A stretch of 48,966 nucleotides of DNA from Alphaproteobacteria bacterium. GTDB lineage: Bacteria; Pseudomonadota; Alphaproteobacteria; UBA7985; JAUIBT01. Positions within the stretch are counted from its first letter, which is position 1. Each line of letters opens with the position of its first letter. The notes beneath the pieces were generated by a model. It was given only the letters and a program-made list of their open reading frames with translations. It was not told where the DNA came from and made no database searches. The stretch lies in the NCBI GenBank assembly GCA_030428565.1, contig JAUIDR010000023.1, positions 1-48,966 on the forward strand. Direction: 5' to 3'. The translations under genes were made by a program, and so were the position numbers. Positions 6,084-48,966 of the stretch are shown in pieces.

Positions 6084-6090
6084 CAAGGGG

Positions 6091-6249
6091 CTGGGGGGTG
6101 CGTTAGGCCTATTTCGTCTCCGGGGCCGATACCGCATTCCTAGGGAGCTGTCCCTGTCAAGGCCGTGGTCTTGGTATAACGGCGCCCACCTGTCTAAGGG
6201 CAGGCCACGGGAAGACACCTTCGTGCCGACGGCCCACCTGGCATCCCTT
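6091..6249 (+). ncRNA. ssrS: 6S RNA (candidate)
   Basis: A region of about 157 nt with no coding signal that looks like 6S RNA, the promoter mimic that binds sigma70 RNA polymerase in stationary phase. The ends pair: GGGGTGC at 6095-6101 is fully complementary (one G-U) to GCATCCC at 6241-6247, and AGG/CCT continues the stem. Inside are a GCCGATAC motif and GGGAGCTG in the 5' half, and CCCACCTG, AGGGCAGG, then GCCGACGG in the 3' half, an order that resembles alphaproteobacterial 6S sequences as I remember them. The length is right for the group. The usual zapA and 5-formyl-THF cyclo-ligase neighbours are absent. A covariance-model search would be decisive. Confidence 0.68.
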
Positions 6250-42572: not shown

Positions 42573-44276
42573 TTATGCGATCGCCGCGTTGCCAGCTCCA
42601 GCACCCGCTACCGGGGCTGCGCTTGCATCGGTCTGTTGAGTAGAGCCACCGTCTTCTTGTTGATCCCAGGCACCGCCTCGAATTGTCATGAAGACGTTGA
42701 AAGCCATGAGCAAACCACCCAACAGGTAGAGCAGGCCGCCGACCATGCGCATGACATACTCAGGATGCAGCGCAGACACGGTGTCGATGAAGCTGTTCAC
42801 CAAGAAGCCTTGCGGATCGTATTCACGCCACATCAGACCTTGAGTGATGCCCGCGACCCACATAACCGCAGCGTAGATTACGATGCCGATGGTGGCCAGC
42901 CACAGGTGCCAGTTGACCAAACGCATGGAGTAAAGACGTGAGCGGTTCCAAAGCCGGGGGGTCAAGAAGTAGATCACGCCAAAGGAGATCATGCCGACCC
43001 AACCCAGAGCGCCTGAGTGTACGTGGCCAATGGTCCAGTCGGTATAGTGCGACAGGGAGTTGACGGACTTGATGGACATGACCGGGCCTTCGAAGGTGGA
43101 CATGCCGTAGAAAGCGATGGACAAGACGAACATGCGCAAAATGGGATCGGTGCGCAGCTTGTGCCAAGCGCCAGAAAGGGTCATGAGGCCGTTAATCATG
43201 CCGCCCCAAGAGGGCATCCACAACATGATGGAGAAGACCATACCCAAGGTCTGCGCCCAATCCGGCAATGCGGTGTAGTGCAGGTGGTGTGGGCCAGCCC
43301 AGATGTAGAGGAAGATCAGTGCCCAGAAGTGGATGATCGACAGGCGGTAGGAGTAGACAGGGCGATTGGCCTGCTTGGGCACGAAGTAGTACATCATGCC
43401 AAGAAAACCCGCTGTCAGGAAGAAGCCCACGGCGTTGTGCCCATACCACCACTGAACCAACGCATCTTGGACGCCCGCAAAGGCCGAATAGGACTTGATG
43501 CCCACGAAGGACACGGGAACGGCTAAGTTGTTGACCACGTGCAACATGGCCACCGTGACGATGAAGGCCAGATAGAACCAGTTGGCGACATAGATGTGCG
43601 GTTCTTTACGCTTGAACAAAGTGCCCAAGAAGACCAGCAGATAAGCCACCCAAACGATTGTGATCCAAAGATCGACGTACCACTCGGGCTCGGCGTATTC
43701 ACGCCCCTGGGTGATGCCCAAGATATAGCCGGTCGCCGCCAAAACGATAAAGAACTGATAGCCCCAGAAAACGAACCAAGGCAGAATACCGCCGAACAGC
43801 CGCGCGCCAGTGGTGCGCTGAACGACGTAAAAGCTGCTCATAATCAGCGCGTTACCGCCAAAGGCGAAAATCACCGCTGAGGTGTGCAACGGGCGCAGGC
43901 GACCAAAATTCAGCCAAGGCTCAATATTGAACTGCGGCCAGGCCAATTGCAGCGCGACCACCACGCCGACCAAAAGGCCCACGACGCCCCAGAAGGCCGT
44001 CGCCACCACGCCATAGCGAACCACGGTGTCGCTGTATTTTTCATTGACCCACAAAGGCGTGTTCTTTTTGGCAACGCCCTGCCAGCCCGATTTGGCTAAC
44101 GTGTCATTGCTCATTTCCTTTGCGGTGCCGCGAACGGCGAAGACCAGTGCCAAAACCAGCACCGCCCCGACCAACACGGCTTGTTGTACCAACAGGGGAT
44201 CGCTACTTCTAGCGACCGCCCCAAGCGCAAGGACCGCCAGTGCAGCGATCACAAGTGTTAAGAAGCCTGACTTCAC
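42573..44276 (-). CDS. ccoN: cbb3-type cytochrome c oxidase catalytic subunit I
   Basis: 567 residues from GTG 44276. Conserved haem and CuB regions are present: [59 protein letters not shown] and [12 protein letters not shown]. The protein reduces O2 with high affinity and pumps protons. GTG 44276 was selected because AAAGG lies 8 nt upstream; a TTG at 44336 would add 20 residues, and ATG 44114 has its Shine-Dalgarno too close. The N-terminus (about 70 residues) adds two membrane helices, as in some alphaproteobacterial CcoN. It is the first gene of ccoNOQP. Confidence 0.95.
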
Positions 44277-44405
44277 GCGCCTAACCTTTCTGTTCTCATT
44301 GAAACCGTGTGCGCTCTTGCTTGCGCTTCCAGCCAAACGTTAACTGTCCCGTTTATTTTTCGGGATCCGCAGGCTAAAACCGCGCAAAGCGCCAGGTTTC
44401 CCGAC

Positions 44406-44447
44406 AGACTAGTTACTCTGCCGGGGGCCAGAATTGATGTAAGTCAA
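44406..44447 (-). promoter_or_regulatory. FNR/FixK box and -10 of the ccoN promoter
   Basis: TTGAT-GTAA-GTCAA (44434-44447) differs from the TTGAT-N4-ATCAA consensus by one base. On the minus strand 22 bp separate it from TAGTCT (44411-44406), a candidate -10. This places the box centre 41.5 bp before a start near 44399, the class II activator position. The same box-22 bp-TAGTCT layout precedes hemN. Confidence 0.82.
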
Positions 44448-44473
44448 GCGCCCCATCCGCATGAATGCGATAG

Positions 44474-44520
44474 TTGTCGCAGTATAAATGCTGAGTGATT
44501 ATTTTGTCGCAGCATAAATA
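44474..44520. repeat. Pair of 17-bp direct repeats upstream of ccoN
   Basis: TTGTCGCAGTATAAATG (44474-44490) and TTGTCGCAGCATAAATA (44504-44520) match at 15 of 17 positions and are spaced 30 bp apart, close to three helical turns. They lie between the regulator gene terminator and the ccoN FNR box, so they could bind a second regulator on one face of the helix. Confidence 0.7.
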
Positions 44521-44529
44521 CGCAAATAA

Positions 44530-44567
44530 AATACAAAACAAAACCGGCTGCATATATTTGCAGCCGG
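44530..44567 (-). terminator. Intrinsic terminator of the FNR/FixK-family gene
   Basis: CCGGCTGCA (44544-44552) pairs perfectly with TGCAGCCGG (44559-44567) around a 6-nt loop. On the minus strand the stem is followed by TTTTGTTTTGTATTTTA, a good U-rich tail. It separates the regulator from ccoN. Confidence 0.92.
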
Positions 44568-44668
44568 CTTCAAGTTGTTCACAACAAATTAAAATATCAA
44601 ATAATCATTACTTCAAATTCGCATCAGAAATTTCACATTTTACGCAAGAACAGTGCCGCAGCTTGGCG

Positions 44669-45502
44669 CTACGCATTTGCCAGACCTTCAAAGAATTCTA
44701 GATCGGTCAGCCGCAAAGACTTGCCGCGTTGCTCTTCCAAACGACCATCTTTGCGCCACTGAGAAAGTTGACGCGACACTGTTTCTAAGGTCAGGCCGGT
44801 GAAGTCTGCGACTTGCTGACGCGAAGGAATAAAGCGAACCACCGCCCGCTCCATGTCCGGGCCGCTGGTTGCCCGCTCGCCGTCCTCGGCGCTACCGGCG
44901 ATCTTTGCCACCAGGTGCAACAAGAAGCGCGCCAGGCGCTGTTCTGCAGTCAGACGACCCAGCATAAAGATATGATCCCGGTCGTTGCGCGCCCGCTCTT
45001 GCGCAGCGCCGAAAAGAAACGGCAGCATGGCAGGCGAACGCTGGAGCTCCGAGAGCGTAACGACCCGTACCACGGCGTCATTGGCCGCTTCGGCGCTATG
45101 ATCGTAAACACCGGCAAACGTGAGGTCTGCGGGCTCCTTAGTGCCAACAATTTCAAGAACTTGCTCGCGGCCATCGCTGGTGAAGCGCTTGAGCAAGACG
45201 ACACCGGACTCGACAATATAGATGCGCTCAATGGCATCGCCTTGTTGGTAAAGGAATTCGCCGCGCTGCAATCGCTTGGTGCTGCCCACATGACGCCAGT
45301 CCAGCGATTCGCAAGCCTCAGCCTGCGCGGTATCGGAGGCGTCGATGGCCCGCTCTAGCGTGGGGATTGACTTCACGGATCGTTCCCGGCGCCTTGGCTG
45401 CGCCGCGCCATCGTAGGCAACGGGGTCGAAACCGCCGACCAAAGAGTCATGCACCAGCTCTCTTGAGTCGTTTAAAGAAGTGGCATCAAAATAGTCGCTC
45501 AC
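44669..45502 (-). CDS. Crp/Fnr family transcriptional regulator, FixK-like
   Basis: 277 residues from GTG 45502 (AGGA about 10 nt upstream). An unusual 50-residue N-terminal extension precedes the cyclic-nucleotide-type beta-barrel (RGEFLYQQGDAIERIYIVESGVVLL), dimer helix and helix-turn-helix SRQQVADFTGLTLETVSRQL (about 226-246). The ETVSR recognition helix is the FNR/FixK type that reads TTGAT-N4-ATCAA. Only one cysteine (C64) exists, so no [4Fe-4S] cluster can form as in FNR or FnrL. It probably activates ccoN and hemN; the oxygen signal may come from elsewhere. Confidence 0.9.
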   Translation of the reverse strand: MSDYFDATSLNDSRELVHDSLVGGFDPVAYDGAAQPRRRERSVKSIPTLERAIDASDTAQAEACESLDWRHVGSTKRLQRGEFLYQQGDAIERIYIVESGVVLLKRFTSDGREQVLEIVGTKEPADLTFAGVYDHSAEAANDAVVRVVTLSELQRSPAMLPFLFGAAQERARNDRDHIFMLGRLTAEQRLARFLLHLVAKIAGSAEDGERATSGPDMERAVVRFIPSRQQVADFTGLTLETVSRQLSQWRKDGRLEEQRGKSLRLTDLEFFEGLANA

Positions 45503-45724
45503 GTTCCTATGTCCTGTCAGGTTTGGCCCGGCGTTGAACCGCGCATTTCAGCGCCGCCCACAACAAGGCAAGTTGCTTCAAGCGACCCAATCAGCGTGCT
45601 CGCGATCCGAAATTGACCGATAGAACCTTGGTCACTTTCAGCCTCGCTGACCCGTCCGACTGGACCTTATTCACCGACAAGAACCGCTTGGTCCGAAAGG
45701 GAAAACCGCCCCTTTTACAGTCGA

Positions 45725-45738
45725 TTGATTTATCTCAA
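45725..45738. promoter_or_regulatory. FNR/FixK box between the regulator gene and the Usp gene
   Basis: TTGAT-TTAT-CTCAA differs from the consensus at one position. It lies 223 bp upstream of the regulator start and 282 bp upstream of the Usp start in a 517-bp divergent region, so it may serve either or both. Neither side has a TAGTCT at the 22-bp spacing. Confidence 0.65.
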
Positions 45739-45876
45739 AGTCTCACAAGACGACCCCAGGAGATAGACGCGCAACTACGGTAGGGTACTTCTACGCGCTT
45801 TGTGAAAATTATCATTATTTATCAGATACCTACATTTGCATCACGCAAAAGTGCGACGCCTAAAATCCCCCTGTGC

Positions 45877-45938
45877 GAATGGCAGAATTACGCCGACGTA
45901 GTAGTGCGAATAGTGCGTTGTGCGCAGAATTGCCATTC
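45877..45938. repeat. Inverted repeat in the Usp leader
   Basis: GAATGGCA-g-AATT (45877-45889) is complementary to AATTGCCATTC (45928-45938) apart from one bulged base, enclosing about 38 bp that contain several GTGCG motifs. It ends about 80 bp before the Usp start. It could be a leader RNA stem or a spread-out operator. An additional dyad TTTGC-N5-GCAAA lies at 45835-45849. Confidence 0.6.
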
Positions 45939-46019
45939 TAATGGGTATGGGACGCAACCAAACGCGCCATCGTGAAACGCAAAGGTTTCTCGCCAACCCG
46001 CCTAGCTTAGGAGATCAGC

Positions 46020-46871
46020 ATGGCCCGCATCACGGTTCTTTCGCCACTATTCGACACCAGCCAAGTCGAGGCGACCTTGTGCAAAATTGCAGAGGCCTTT
46101 GATGGTCAGGAAATCCACCTGATTGGCCTGTATGTAAAAGACATCATGGATTACAGCTTGGGCTATGCAGGCTACTCGACCCACGGCTATGCTTTCCCGG
46201 CCGATGTAATCGAAAACCTGTCCGAGCAGTCCAAGGAAGCCACCGCCAAAGTCAAGGCGGCCTTTGAAGCCTGCAGCCTGCCCCACACCATCGTTAAAGA
46301 GTGGCGGGCAGTCACCGGCAACGCCTTCGATCATATCTCTGCCCAGGCGCTCTACGCTGACCTGACGGTTTTGCCCTCACAGCCCAACATGGACCACGCT
46401 TTTTACGACGAGCTGTTGGCCCTGCACGTCTCAGACCAGGCGCCGACGCCCGTTCTGTTGCTACCGCTGGAAGCCAAAATCCAGCCCATCTTCTCTAAGC
46501 CCGTCCTGGCTTGGAAGGAGAGCCCGGAAGCCGCCAGAGCCGCCCGCGCTTTGATACGACTGATGCCCAAGGGCGGGTCCATCGACGTGGCCTTCGCCTA
46601 CAACCAGTTTAATGACGAAGGCATCAGCCAGCCAAGCGCCGCTGACATGAGCGCTTACTTGGCGCGCCAAGGCTATCAAGTCACCGATTCCCTCGTCCAC
46701 ACAGCTCAGTCCACCATCGGCCAAGCTCTGGTCGAACACGCAAACGATAAGGACGCCAGTCTCATCGTAGCGGGCGGCTATGGCCGTCGGCGCTGGGTGG
46801 AAGTGGTATTCGGCGGGGTCACTCAAACCCTGGTGGGCCAAGACCAGATCCCCGTACTTCTCGCAAGATAG
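46020..46871 (+). CDS. Tandem universal stress protein (UspA family)
   Basis: 283 residues forming two Usp domains. The C-terminal one (about 160-283) is better conserved: KPVLAWKESPEAARAARALIRLM, ASLIVAGGYGRRRWVEVVFGGVTQTLV, with an ATP-binding-like G-x2-G-x9-G(S/T) pattern altered to GGYGRRRWVEVVFGGVT. The N-terminal domain is degenerate. Usp proteins with two domains are common near anaerobic or microaerobic loci. AGGAG lies upstream of ATG 46020. It is divergent from the FixK-like gene. Confidence 0.9.
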   Translation: MARITVLSPLFDTSQVEATLCKIAEAFDGQEIHLIGLYVKDIMDYSLGYAGYSTHGYAFPADVIENLSEQSKEATAKVKAAFEACSLPHTIVKEWRAVTGNAFDHISAQALYADLTVLPSQPNMDHAFYDELLALHVSDQAPTPVLLLPLEAKIQPIFSKPVLAWKESPEAARAARALIRLMPKGGSIDVAFAYNQFNDEGISQPSAADMSAYLARQGYQVTDSLVHTAQSTIGQALVEHANDKDASLIVAGGYGRRRWVEVVFGGVTQTLVGQDQIPVLLAR

Positions 46872-46881
46872 GGCGGCGCCC

Positions 46882-46967
46882 TTTGACATAGCGCGCGCCG
46901 CTCTCGAAAGGCTGGGCCTCCCCTCCGCCTACTCAGCCGAGCCTTTCCCTCCCAGTGCTATGTCAAA
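46882..46967. repeat. MITE-like inverted-repeat element or long hairpin after the Usp gene
   Basis: TTTGACATAGC (46882-46892) is a perfect 11-bp inverted match of GCTATGTCAAA (46957-46967). Inside, GAAAGGCT (46906-46913) pairs with AGCCTTTC (46940-46947). Total length is 86 bp. There is no T-run after the stem on either strand, so it is not a typical terminator. No target duplication is obvious. The rest of the gap to the Hsp20 gene (to 47284) holds no recognisable gene. Confidence 0.75.
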
Positions 46968-47284
46968 ATTGGTTTGAAAGAACCTCTCACTCTCAGCCAT
47001 CCGTTCGCTCAATCCCAACCGTGACGGACTTTCTGGGGCGGGCTCGTAATGTTCGCGCCCCACCGCTTGAGCTTTGCCTGGGGCAATCGCGCCCTCGTTC
47101 AAGCTAGAGCGTTTAGCCAACCCGCACGAGCCCGCACCCCTTTCTCGTCTCAACGTAAGTCTCAAGCCTCTCAACAAAAACAAGAATCGCCAAATCCTCT
47201 CACCCTAACGCCCCGCGTCGCCGATCGAGCAACCTCTTCTCTCTTCTCTCTCCGCGCTTGACCGACGCATTCAGGAGCACTGTC

Positions 47285-47827
47285 ATGTCTCTCAATCCCT
47301 GGTACCGTAAACAGACCACCCCCAGCCTCTCAACCGGCTCTGCTGCCATCCCCGTGCACCACGAAGGACTTGGCGTCGGCGCCCTAGCCCGCGAACCTTT
47401 GGCCGCCATACAAAACGGCATGAACCGTTGGATGGGCCGGTTGTTCGGACTTGAACCTGATATTGATGTGGAAAATAGTATGCTGTCCCACTTTGCTGCC
47501 CCCTTGGTCGATGTCATCGAAGGCGAGAAGGGTTACACCGTCTCCGCCGAACTCCCCGCCATGAAGCCCGAAGACCTGAACGTCAGCGTTCAAGGCGACC
47601 GCTTGGTCATTCGCGGCGAAAAAAAAAGCGAAAAGTCTGAGCGCAATGACGACGATGTGGTGATCCGCTCCGAGCGCTATTTCGGGGTCGTACAGCGCAG
47701 CTTGAACCTGCCTCACGACGCTGATTTGGACGCCATTTCTGCCGACTTTAGCGATGGCGTGCTGTTGCTCACCATCCCCAAGCGGCAGGGTGCCAACAAA
47801 AACAGTCGCCAGATTCCGATTGCCTAG
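47285..47827 (+). CDS. Small heat-shock protein, Hsp20/alpha-crystallin family
   Basis: 180 residues. The alpha-crystallin domain runs from VDVIEGEKGYTVSAELPAMKPEDLNVSVQGDRLVIRGEKK to the C-terminal DGVLLLTIPK; the terminal IPI (QIPIA) is the I-x-I oligomerisation motif. It is an ATP-independent holdase chaperone. AGGAG lies 8 nt before ATG 47285; a longer in-frame start has no ribosome site. No heat-shock sigma32 promoter or ROSE thermometer was recognised upstream. The gene ends at a strong terminator. Confidence 0.95.
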   Translation: MSLNPWYRKQTTPSLSTGSAAIPVHHEGLGVGALAREPLAAIQNGMNRWMGRLFGLEPDIDVENSMLSHFAAPLVDVIEGEKGYTVSAELPAMKPEDLNVSVQGDRLVIRGEKKSEKSERNDDDVVIRSERYFGVVQRSLNLPHDADLDAISADFSDGVLLLTIPKRQGANKNSRQIPIA

Positions 47828-47938
47828 CTGGGTCGATGCCAGCCCGCGAGGCAAAGCGCGCCAGCGTCGCCAGCATCGCAGGCGATCTTTACCCCTCAGC
47901 GCCACCCACCGTCCCAATTTCTCCTCCTGCCTCAACTT

Positions 47939-47984
47939 GCATGGGGGTGCCCACTTTAAGCACTCCCATGCCCCCTTTTTTTTT
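47939..47984 (+). terminator. Intrinsic terminator after the Hsp20 gene
   Basis: GCATGGGGGTGC (47939-47950) pairs with GCACTCCCATGC (47960-47971), one G-T wobble, followed by CCCC and a run of nine T (47976-47984). It is 110 bp after the hsp20 stop. Confidence 0.93.
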
Positions 47985-47999
47985 CAGCGTGAGGCTCCG

Positions 48000-48044
48000 G
48001 CGAAGTTGGACCCTGCGAAGTTGAACCCTGCGAAGTTGGACCCG
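48000..48044. repeat. Tandem repeat, three copies of a 15-bp unit
   Basis: GCGAAGTTGGACCCT (48000-48014), GCGAAGTTGAACCCT (48015-48029) and GCGAAGTTGGACCCG (48030-48044). It lies just upstream of the hemN FNR box and after the hsp20 terminator. Non-coding in my reading. Confidence 0.9.
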
Positions 48045-48053
48045 GCGCTAAGC

Positions 48054-48095
48054 TTGACCGAGATCAAAGAGCCAAAATGCCGCCTTTGCTAGTCT
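48054..48095 (+). promoter_or_regulatory. FNR/FixK box and -10 of the hemN promoter
   Basis: TTGAC-CGAG-ATCAA (48054-48067) has one mismatch to the consensus. After 22 bp comes TAGTCT (48090-48095), giving a start near 48102, about 100 nt before the hemN ATG. The spacing and hexamer are identical to the ccoN promoter. Confidence 0.82.
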
Positions 48096-48201: not shown

Positions 48202-48966
48202 ATGCCCCAAGCCCGCAGCGAGGCCGACTTCATCCATGAGGCGGTGCCGCGTTACACCAGCTACCCTCCGGCGACCGAATTTCAGGCGGCCTTCGACCCG
48301 CGCTCACACGCAGCGTGGCTGGCGGCGGTTCCAGCGGGCCAAGCCCTGTCGCTCTACATCCATATTCCCTACTGCGATCGCCTTTGTTGGTTCTGTGGCT
48401 GTTCGACCAAGCAGACCAAGCGTTATGAGCCGGTTGCAGCCTATCTTAAGGTCTTACACCGCGAGATCGCTCTGGTCGCTGAGCAGCTGGGCCAACGCCA
48501 CAGTTTAGCGCGCCTCCACTTGGGCGGCGGTTCTCCCAGTTTGCTGAAGGCCGAGGATATGGCCGACTTGCGCCACGTCCTCGACCGCCACTTTGATCTT
48601 GATGGAGACTGCGAAGTCAGCGTTGAACTGGATCCGGTCGACATGACGCCCGAGACCTACGAGGGGCTGGCCGCACTCGGTTTGACGCGCGCGAGCTTGG
48701 GCGTCCAGGACTTCGATCCCCTGGTGCAGACCACGATCAATCGTCCGCAGAGCTTTGAAGAGACCAAAGCGGTCATCGACCGCCTGCGCGCACGTGGGAT
48801 CACCTCGATCAACATCGACGCGCTCTACGGACTGCCGCACCAAACGCCCGAGCGCTTTGCTGCGACCTTGGAGCAAATCATCTCACTGGCGCCCAATCGC
48901 ATTGCTCTGTTCGGCTATGCCCATGTGCCTTGGGTGAAAAAGCACCAACGCCTGATCCCTGAAGAG
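48202..48966 (+). CDS. hemN: Oxygen-independent coproporphyrinogen III oxidase (partial)
   Basis: The first 255 residues are present and the frame is open at the right edge (full length about 450). A radical-SAM enzyme that converts coproporphyrinogen III to protoporphyrinogen IX without oxygen. The [4Fe-4S] motif is YCDRLCWFCGC (CxxxCxxC plus the extra Cys of HemN), preceded by YTSYPPATEF and LSLYIHIP, and followed by LHLGGGSPSLL (SAM-binding GGGxP-like) and VSVELDPVDMT. It supplies haem for the cbb3 oxidase under low oxygen and carries its own FNR-type promoter. Start ATG 48202. Confidence 0.95.
   Translation, partial: MPQARSEADFIHEAVPRYTSYPPATEFQAAFDPRSHAAWLAAVPAGQALSLYIHIPYCDRLCWFCGCSTKQTKRYEPVAAYLKVLHREIALVAEQLGQRHSLARLHLGGGSPSLLKAEDMADLRHVLDRHFDLDGDCEVSVELDPVDMTPETYEGLAALGLTRASLGVQDFDPLVQTTINRPQSFEETKAVIDRLRARGITSINIDALYGLPHQTPERFAATLEQIISLAPNRIALFGYAHVPWVKKHQRLIPEE

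Follow-up and report, generated by a model that had tools for sequence, protein, structure and literature searches.

Promoter architecture at ccoN and hemN

The stretch analysed here (the window) is a contig of 48,966 nt from the genome of an uncharacterised alphaproteobacterial lineage (GTDB UBA7985; JAUIBT01; contig JAUIDR010000023.1, here C2, of assembly GCA_030428565.1). Towards its right end it carries ccoN, a gene for a FixK-like regulator, a universal stress protein gene (usp) and the first part of hemN (Table 1). The genome, 3.52 Mb in 114 contigs and 99.2 % complete, holds the remainder of hemN on contig C37, which shares 127 bp with the end of C2, followed by fixL and fixJ. Both usp and hsp20 genes are also located between the ccoN and hemN promoters.

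Upstream of both ccoN and hemN, on opposite strands, a box of the FixK/FNR type is followed after 22 nt by the hexamer TAGTCT. An earlier note on this stretch had described one-mismatch boxes, this spacing and this hexamer at the two genes, and the description is exact. With the hexamers as -10 elements, transcription is predicted to start near 44399 for ccoN and 48102 for hemN, centring the box at -41.5 in both cases; these values, also put forward in the note, are correct as arithmetic. The arrangement at both genes is that of class II promoters, in which the activator box is centred at about -41.5 upstream of the -10 element. The predicted leaders are 123 nt for ccoN, counted from the GTG at 44276, and 100 nt for hemN. 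This GTG is probably the true start of ccoN, because the reading frame in a related genome (G001) starts at it.

Two congeners were available for three-species comparisons, G001 (86 % complete) and G002 (99 % complete). In both, the gene order ccoN, fixK, usp, hemN, fixL is retained as far as the contigs extend, and the distance between box and hexamer is 22 nt at all six promoters. The hexamers read TAGTCT, TAGTGT and TAGTCT at ccoN in this genome, G001 and G002, respectively, and TAGTCT, TAGCCT and TAGCGT at hemN. Additionally, TTTGC stands directly before the hemN hexamer in each of the three species and resembles an extended -10 motif. As judged from these alignments, the conserved constraint is the box, the 22 nt and a predicted -10 element of the type TAG-Y-S-T; the exact identity of TAGTCT at ccoN and hemN is a coincidence of one species within that type. 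The coherent ccoN-regulator-hemN module proposed in the note is supported by the retention of box, spacing and gene order in the two congeners, to the extent that their contigs cover it.

Within the class, at least 588 matches to ccoN were found, and the best 80 loci were kept. A box with no more than one mismatch occurs in the 900 nt before the ccoN match at 70 of these best 80; among the 10 without one, locus L090 has merely 14 nt of upstream sequence. At 68 loci the box lies less than 450 nt upstream, leaving 66 promoters after removal of near-identical ones. The second position of the hexamer 22 nt past the box is A in 54 of these 66, compared with a mean of 16 % A in the flanking columns. 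The class II geometry is accordingly conserved in three species at ccoN and hemN and, for ccoN, also in the class at large.

Within the window, sites with one mismatch to TTGAT-N4-ATCAA number four against 0.83 expected, a count equalled in 1 of 100 shuffles. Across the genome, the strict box (TTGAY-N4-RTCAA) occurs 23 times and its reversed pattern, used as a control, twice. The composite of strict box, 22 nt and TAGTCT has two sites, with none for the reversed control; the genome scan suggested in the note therefore returns only ccoN and hemN in 3.52 Mb. None of the other strict boxes among the 23 has TAGTCT at this distance in either direction. By local composition, 0.0096 such hexamers are expected across 46 oriented boxes, for a hexamer that was chosen post hoc, and the probability of any common hexamer at a fixed offset in two promoters is 2.6e-4. 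Among real ccoN promoters, an identical hexamer 22 nt past the box is found in 5 of 2145 pairs (0.23 %), and six other offsets give between 1 and 11 such pairs each; given two TAnnnT hexamers, the remaining three letters would match by chance in 1.6 % of cases. The common position at ccoN and hemN is far beyond chance, the common letters only modestly so.

Table 1. Features at the ccoN–hemN locus and at the receiver gene; positions are those of the window unless a contig or locus is named
Feature	Position	Strand	Remarks
ccoN, cbb3 oxidase subunit I	42573..44336	minus	TIGR00780 score above cut-off
TAGTCT, predicted -10 element of ccoN	44406..44411	minus	22 nt past box
FixK/FNR box of ccoN	44434..44447	minus	TTGACTTACATCAA; 1 mismatch to TTGAT-N4-ATCAA; kept in G001 and G002
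FixK-like Crp/Fnr regulator, 277 aa	44669..45502	minus	Pfam, NCBIfam and structure match
Third box, between fixK and usp	45725..45738	not assigned	TTGATTTATCTCAA; conserved in three species
Conserved block beside third box	45764..45795	not assigned	first 24 nt identical across the three species
usp, universal stress protein gene	46020..46871	plus	Pfam Usp
FixK/FNR box of hemN	48054..48067	plus	TTGACCGAGATCAA; 1 mismatch to TTGAT-N4-ATCAA; kept in G001 and G002
TAGTCT, predicted -10 element of hemN	48090..48095	plus	22 nt past box
hemN	48202..48966	plus	truncated by contig end; TIGR00538 partial, 262.5 bits against cut-off 324.95
Conserved leader, 280 nt	C37:23560-23840 (= L167:6561-6841)	minus on L167	between FixK-type promoter and receiver gene

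The regulator and competing explanations

The best solved structure for the regulator encoded in the window is FixK2 (4i2o, E 3e-13), and its ETVSR recognition helix aligns with those of FixK2 and FNR. Each of the three orthologues has a single cysteine, at residue 64, 211 or 76; with one cysteine per protein in differing places, an FNR Fe-S cluster is ruled out. An FNR protein has an N-terminal cysteine cluster and a further cysteine, which this regulator lacks; an FNR-type helix without Fe-S cysteines, as present here, is the mark of FixK by the criterion of PMC7713065. On C37, a PAS-histidine kinase and a receiver-LuxR-type regulator are encoded in one locus, with FixL and FixJ as the best named matches; an in-frame stop in the FixL match lies, by coordinates, ahead of the 399-aa open reading frame. 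The regulator is FixK-like, in an apparent FixLJ circuit. Its oxygen input probably comes via FixL and FixJ, by analogy with described circuits, and the findings point to FixLJ as the candidate sensor.

Both sites very probably represent class II promoters of the ordinary kind, served by a FixK-type activator within a FixLJ-FixK circuit. Seen directly are the boxes, their spacing, the conservation of both, the gene content and the absence of an Fe-S cysteine cluster. The input from FixL and FixJ, the action of FixJ on fixK and of FixK on cco and hemN, the start sites and the oxygen response are inferred by analogy (PMC4999443, PMC7078487, PMC9104804, PMC13327599). At low oxygen, FixL would phosphorylate FixJ, and phosphorylated FixJ would switch on fixK. 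A cofactor-free FixK dimer would then bind the box centred at -41.5 and touch RNA polymerase seated on the TAnnnT -10 element 22 bp downstream, and the cbb3 oxidase (ccoNOP) and oxygen-independent heme synthesis (hemN) would increase together.

Several observations weigh against this interpretation. The two congeners are close relatives of the genome studied and do not constitute independent samples. Apart from those at ccoN and hemN, 17 of 21 strict boxes lie inside open reading frames of at least 80 aa, so that a box alone is weak evidence. TAnnnT is absent 22 nt past the box in all 66 other ccoN promoters; the -10 letters of this genus therefore differ from the general ones, the layout being that of class II in general. 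The regulator scores 77.5 bits on the NCBIfam FixK model NF050806, a Caulobacter-type equivalog model, far under the cut-off of 300, hence the wording 'FixK-like'. Likewise, the kinase and response regulator reach 278.8 of 850 bits on the FixL model and 163.7 of 255 bits on the FixJ model.

A different explanation, in line with the note's treatment of TAGTCT as a common signature, is that the hexamer marks a dedicated -10 element or a dedicated sigma factor, or that one promoter was recently copied to the other. It is true that the hexamer stands at an equal distance from the box at these two genes and nowhere else in the genome, and that some 0.2 % of unrelated promoter pairs have a hexamer in common. 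In a scan of 289 class genomes, which included G002 and not G001, the composite was found at 10 sites in 9 genomes, compared with one site for a version with 25 nt and one match to the reversed pattern, so that TAGTCT appears usable as a -10 element elsewhere too. Only the genome studied has two sites, and 3 of the 10 fall in this genus. However, the hexamer changes at both genes in G001 and at hemN in G002 with the spacing constant, the 22-nt spacers of the ccoN and hemN promoters are unlike each other, and TAGTCT occurs 22 nt past the box in 0 of the 66 other ccoN promoters. A specific signature is accordingly very improbable, and a dedicated -10 element or sigma factor for the pair was rejected because the letters are conserved neither in the congeners nor in the class. 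When two promoters in a genome have the same -10 letters, this should not in itself be taken as a signature; here it is the spacing that has been conserved, and not the letters.

The boxes could alternatively serve a true oxygen-sensing FNR with a 4Fe-4S cluster encoded elsewhere, the neighbouring regulator being incidental. FNR and FixK boxes are indistinguishable by sequence (PMC4999443), and in Sphingopyxis granuli the same promoters answer to regulators with Fe-S cysteines (PMC7713065). A second Crp/Fnr protein, on contig C95, has four cysteines. However, PF00027 finds just three proteins in this 99.2 % complete genome: the window regulator, the C95 protein and a 900-aa frame on C92. The C95 cysteines, at positions 78, 108, 110 and 111 of the open frame, form no N-terminal cluster, and the helix of this protein, SHEAVYR, is not of the E--SR type. 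An Fe-S FNR was therefore discarded as the regulator, given the single shifting cysteine of the window protein and the lack of both an N-terminal cluster and an FNR-type helix in the C95 protein, and we hold this explanation to be very improbable. The 'FNR/FixK' label of the earlier note was in this respect incomplete and narrows to a FixK-like regulator adjoining fixLJ. Chance matches without function, which the boxes inside genes might suggest, deserve next to no credence, as the box keeps its place and spacing at ccoN and hemN in the three congeneric species and, for ccoN, in the wider class.

Further boxes and the leader of a receiver gene

A looser composite (TTGA-N6-TCAA-N22-TAnnnT) has 12 sites in the three genomes, against 4 for the reversed control: three at ccoN, three at hemN, four at receiver genes and two others in the genome studied. 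These two others have weaker boxes and are located at C37:20933-20974 (minus strand) and C27:16129-16170 (plus strand). The local regulon proposed in the note thus stands as a module, but was drawn too small, leaving out both the third box (Table 1) and a receiver gene that has its own class II promoter. Strict boxes outside open reading frames of at least 80 aa are found at C58:46193, C15:23567 and C40:4693, near genes for an ammonium transporter, a GntR-type regulator and a fatty-acid hydroxylase; TAnnnT is absent 22 nt from each of these three. Elsewhere in the window, at 6085-6248 on the plus strand, a 6S RNA (RF00013) scores 52.2 bits, above the gathering threshold of 46.4.

For the third box, the hexamers 22 nt away in this genome, G001 and G002 are TCCCTT, CGGCCT and ACCCTG towards fixK, and AGATAG, AGATAG and CGGTAG towards usp. 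As TAnnnT is absent in either direction in all three species, the third box is no class II site of the ccoN/hemN layout, and the idea that it drives fixK or usp by class II activation was rejected. Autoregulation of fixK through this box is a guess. On the minus strand of the conserved block beside it, GTAGTTGCGC matches 8 of 10 letters of the published FixJ consensus GTAGTTTCCC (quoted in PMC4999443), making the block a candidate FixJ site. A second strongly conserved stretch lies nearer usp, at about 45883-45920, and reads AATTACGCCG..GTA.TAGTGCGAAT.GTGC in the three-species alignment.

On C37, beside fixJ, a perfect box followed after 22 nt by TATGTT precedes a gene for a 128-aa single-receiver protein. 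Receiver genes with this type of promoter number one in this genome, two in G001 and one in G002; having been found with the pattern, they are no independent test of it. From its single receiver domain, its place beside fixJ and its FixK-type promoter, the gene is predicted to be FixT-like, FixT being a single-receiver protein that blocks the autophosphorylation of FixL; the protein encoded here has one cysteine, near its C-terminus. Outside the genus, homologues occur in 12 of 385 genomes at E 1e-12. At the loci fetched for these 12, a box with no more than one mismatch is absent from 11, and that of L186 lies inside the match.

Between promoter and receiver gene lies a conserved leader, kept in all four copies from the three species. 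Its layout is a long hairpin with a C-run loop, a U-run and then an invariant G-rich element of 34 nt. The first 111-118 nt fold better than shuffled sequences in all four copies (z -2.7, -4.0, -7.7 and -3.7). Over the whole leader, folded for two copies, z is -5.0 in G002 and -0.5 in the genome studied, where 28 of 100 shuffles are equally good. In the four-sequence alignment 96.1 % of cells pair, compared with 38 to 47 % in slid versions, although this comparison favours a structure that was itself taken from the alignment. Double-sided changes are present in 6 of 32 pairs, a number reached by 41 of 500 shuffles; the 8 cells with such changes are reached by 4 of 500, and the covariation score by 2 of 500. 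A set of four sequences is too small to establish covariation firmly.

Rfam gave no match to the leader at gathering scores and, for the copies from this genome and G002, only matches at chance level below these. A covariance model of the leader finds one copy in the genome studied, two in G001 and one in G002; it finds none in 8 other genomes of the order and, in 385 class genomes, one weak extra match (G074, 24.6 bits, E 0.004), so that nothing beyond the genus matches convincingly. No report of such a leader is apparent among the literature matches listed. PMC2245857 names a small-RNA candidate beside fixT; as this candidate is a fixK3 pseudogene repeat, it was set aside as a precedent. The leader might, as a tentative and rather doubtful proposal, be a cis-acting RNA (an attenuator or ligand-binding leader) or a FixK-induced small RNA, placing an RNA checkpoint on oxygen feedback. 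It is the one unusual and possibly new item of the regulon.

Comparison with known circuits

The likeness to S. granuli TFA is in the class II box positions at ccoN and hemN. There, boxes are centred at -41.5 for ccoN, -42.5 for hemN2 and -41.5 for uspA from identified start sites, and the authors assign these promoters to class II (PMC7713065). Both regulators of S. granuli, however, have the four Fe-S cysteines, whereas the regulator here is without the cluster and beside fixLJ, and the box near usp, unlike that of uspA, has no TAnnnT hexamer at the distance typical of class II.

FixK2 of Bradyrhizobium diazoefficiens, whose solved structure the window regulator matches best, is a Crp/Fnr protein with no known cofactor that is induced by FixLJ, represses its own gene and has fixNOQP as a target (PMC9104804). 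It differs in its redox cysteine C183, the place of which, counted on the alignment, is taken by Ser in the window regulator.

In Caulobacterales, FixK sites are predicted at cco, hemN, fixLJ and fixK itself (PMC4999443). The FixLJ-FixK-FixT circuit of Caulobacter likewise unites fixK, a high-affinity oxidase, heme genes and a single-receiver gene (PMC7078487, PMC4999443). The predicted FixT-like receiver here differs from that of Caulobacter in lacking its 4-Cys motif, and its gene differs in having a long conserved leader.

Set beside these systems, the ccoN/hemN pair adds an ordinary example to a familiar class of promoters: a FixK-like regulator without an Fe-S cluster, from an alphaproteobacterial lineage not yet characterised, appears to act on ccoN and hemN through the usual class II arrangement. 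The leader RNA, if active, would add a new control point to this classic oxygen circuit.

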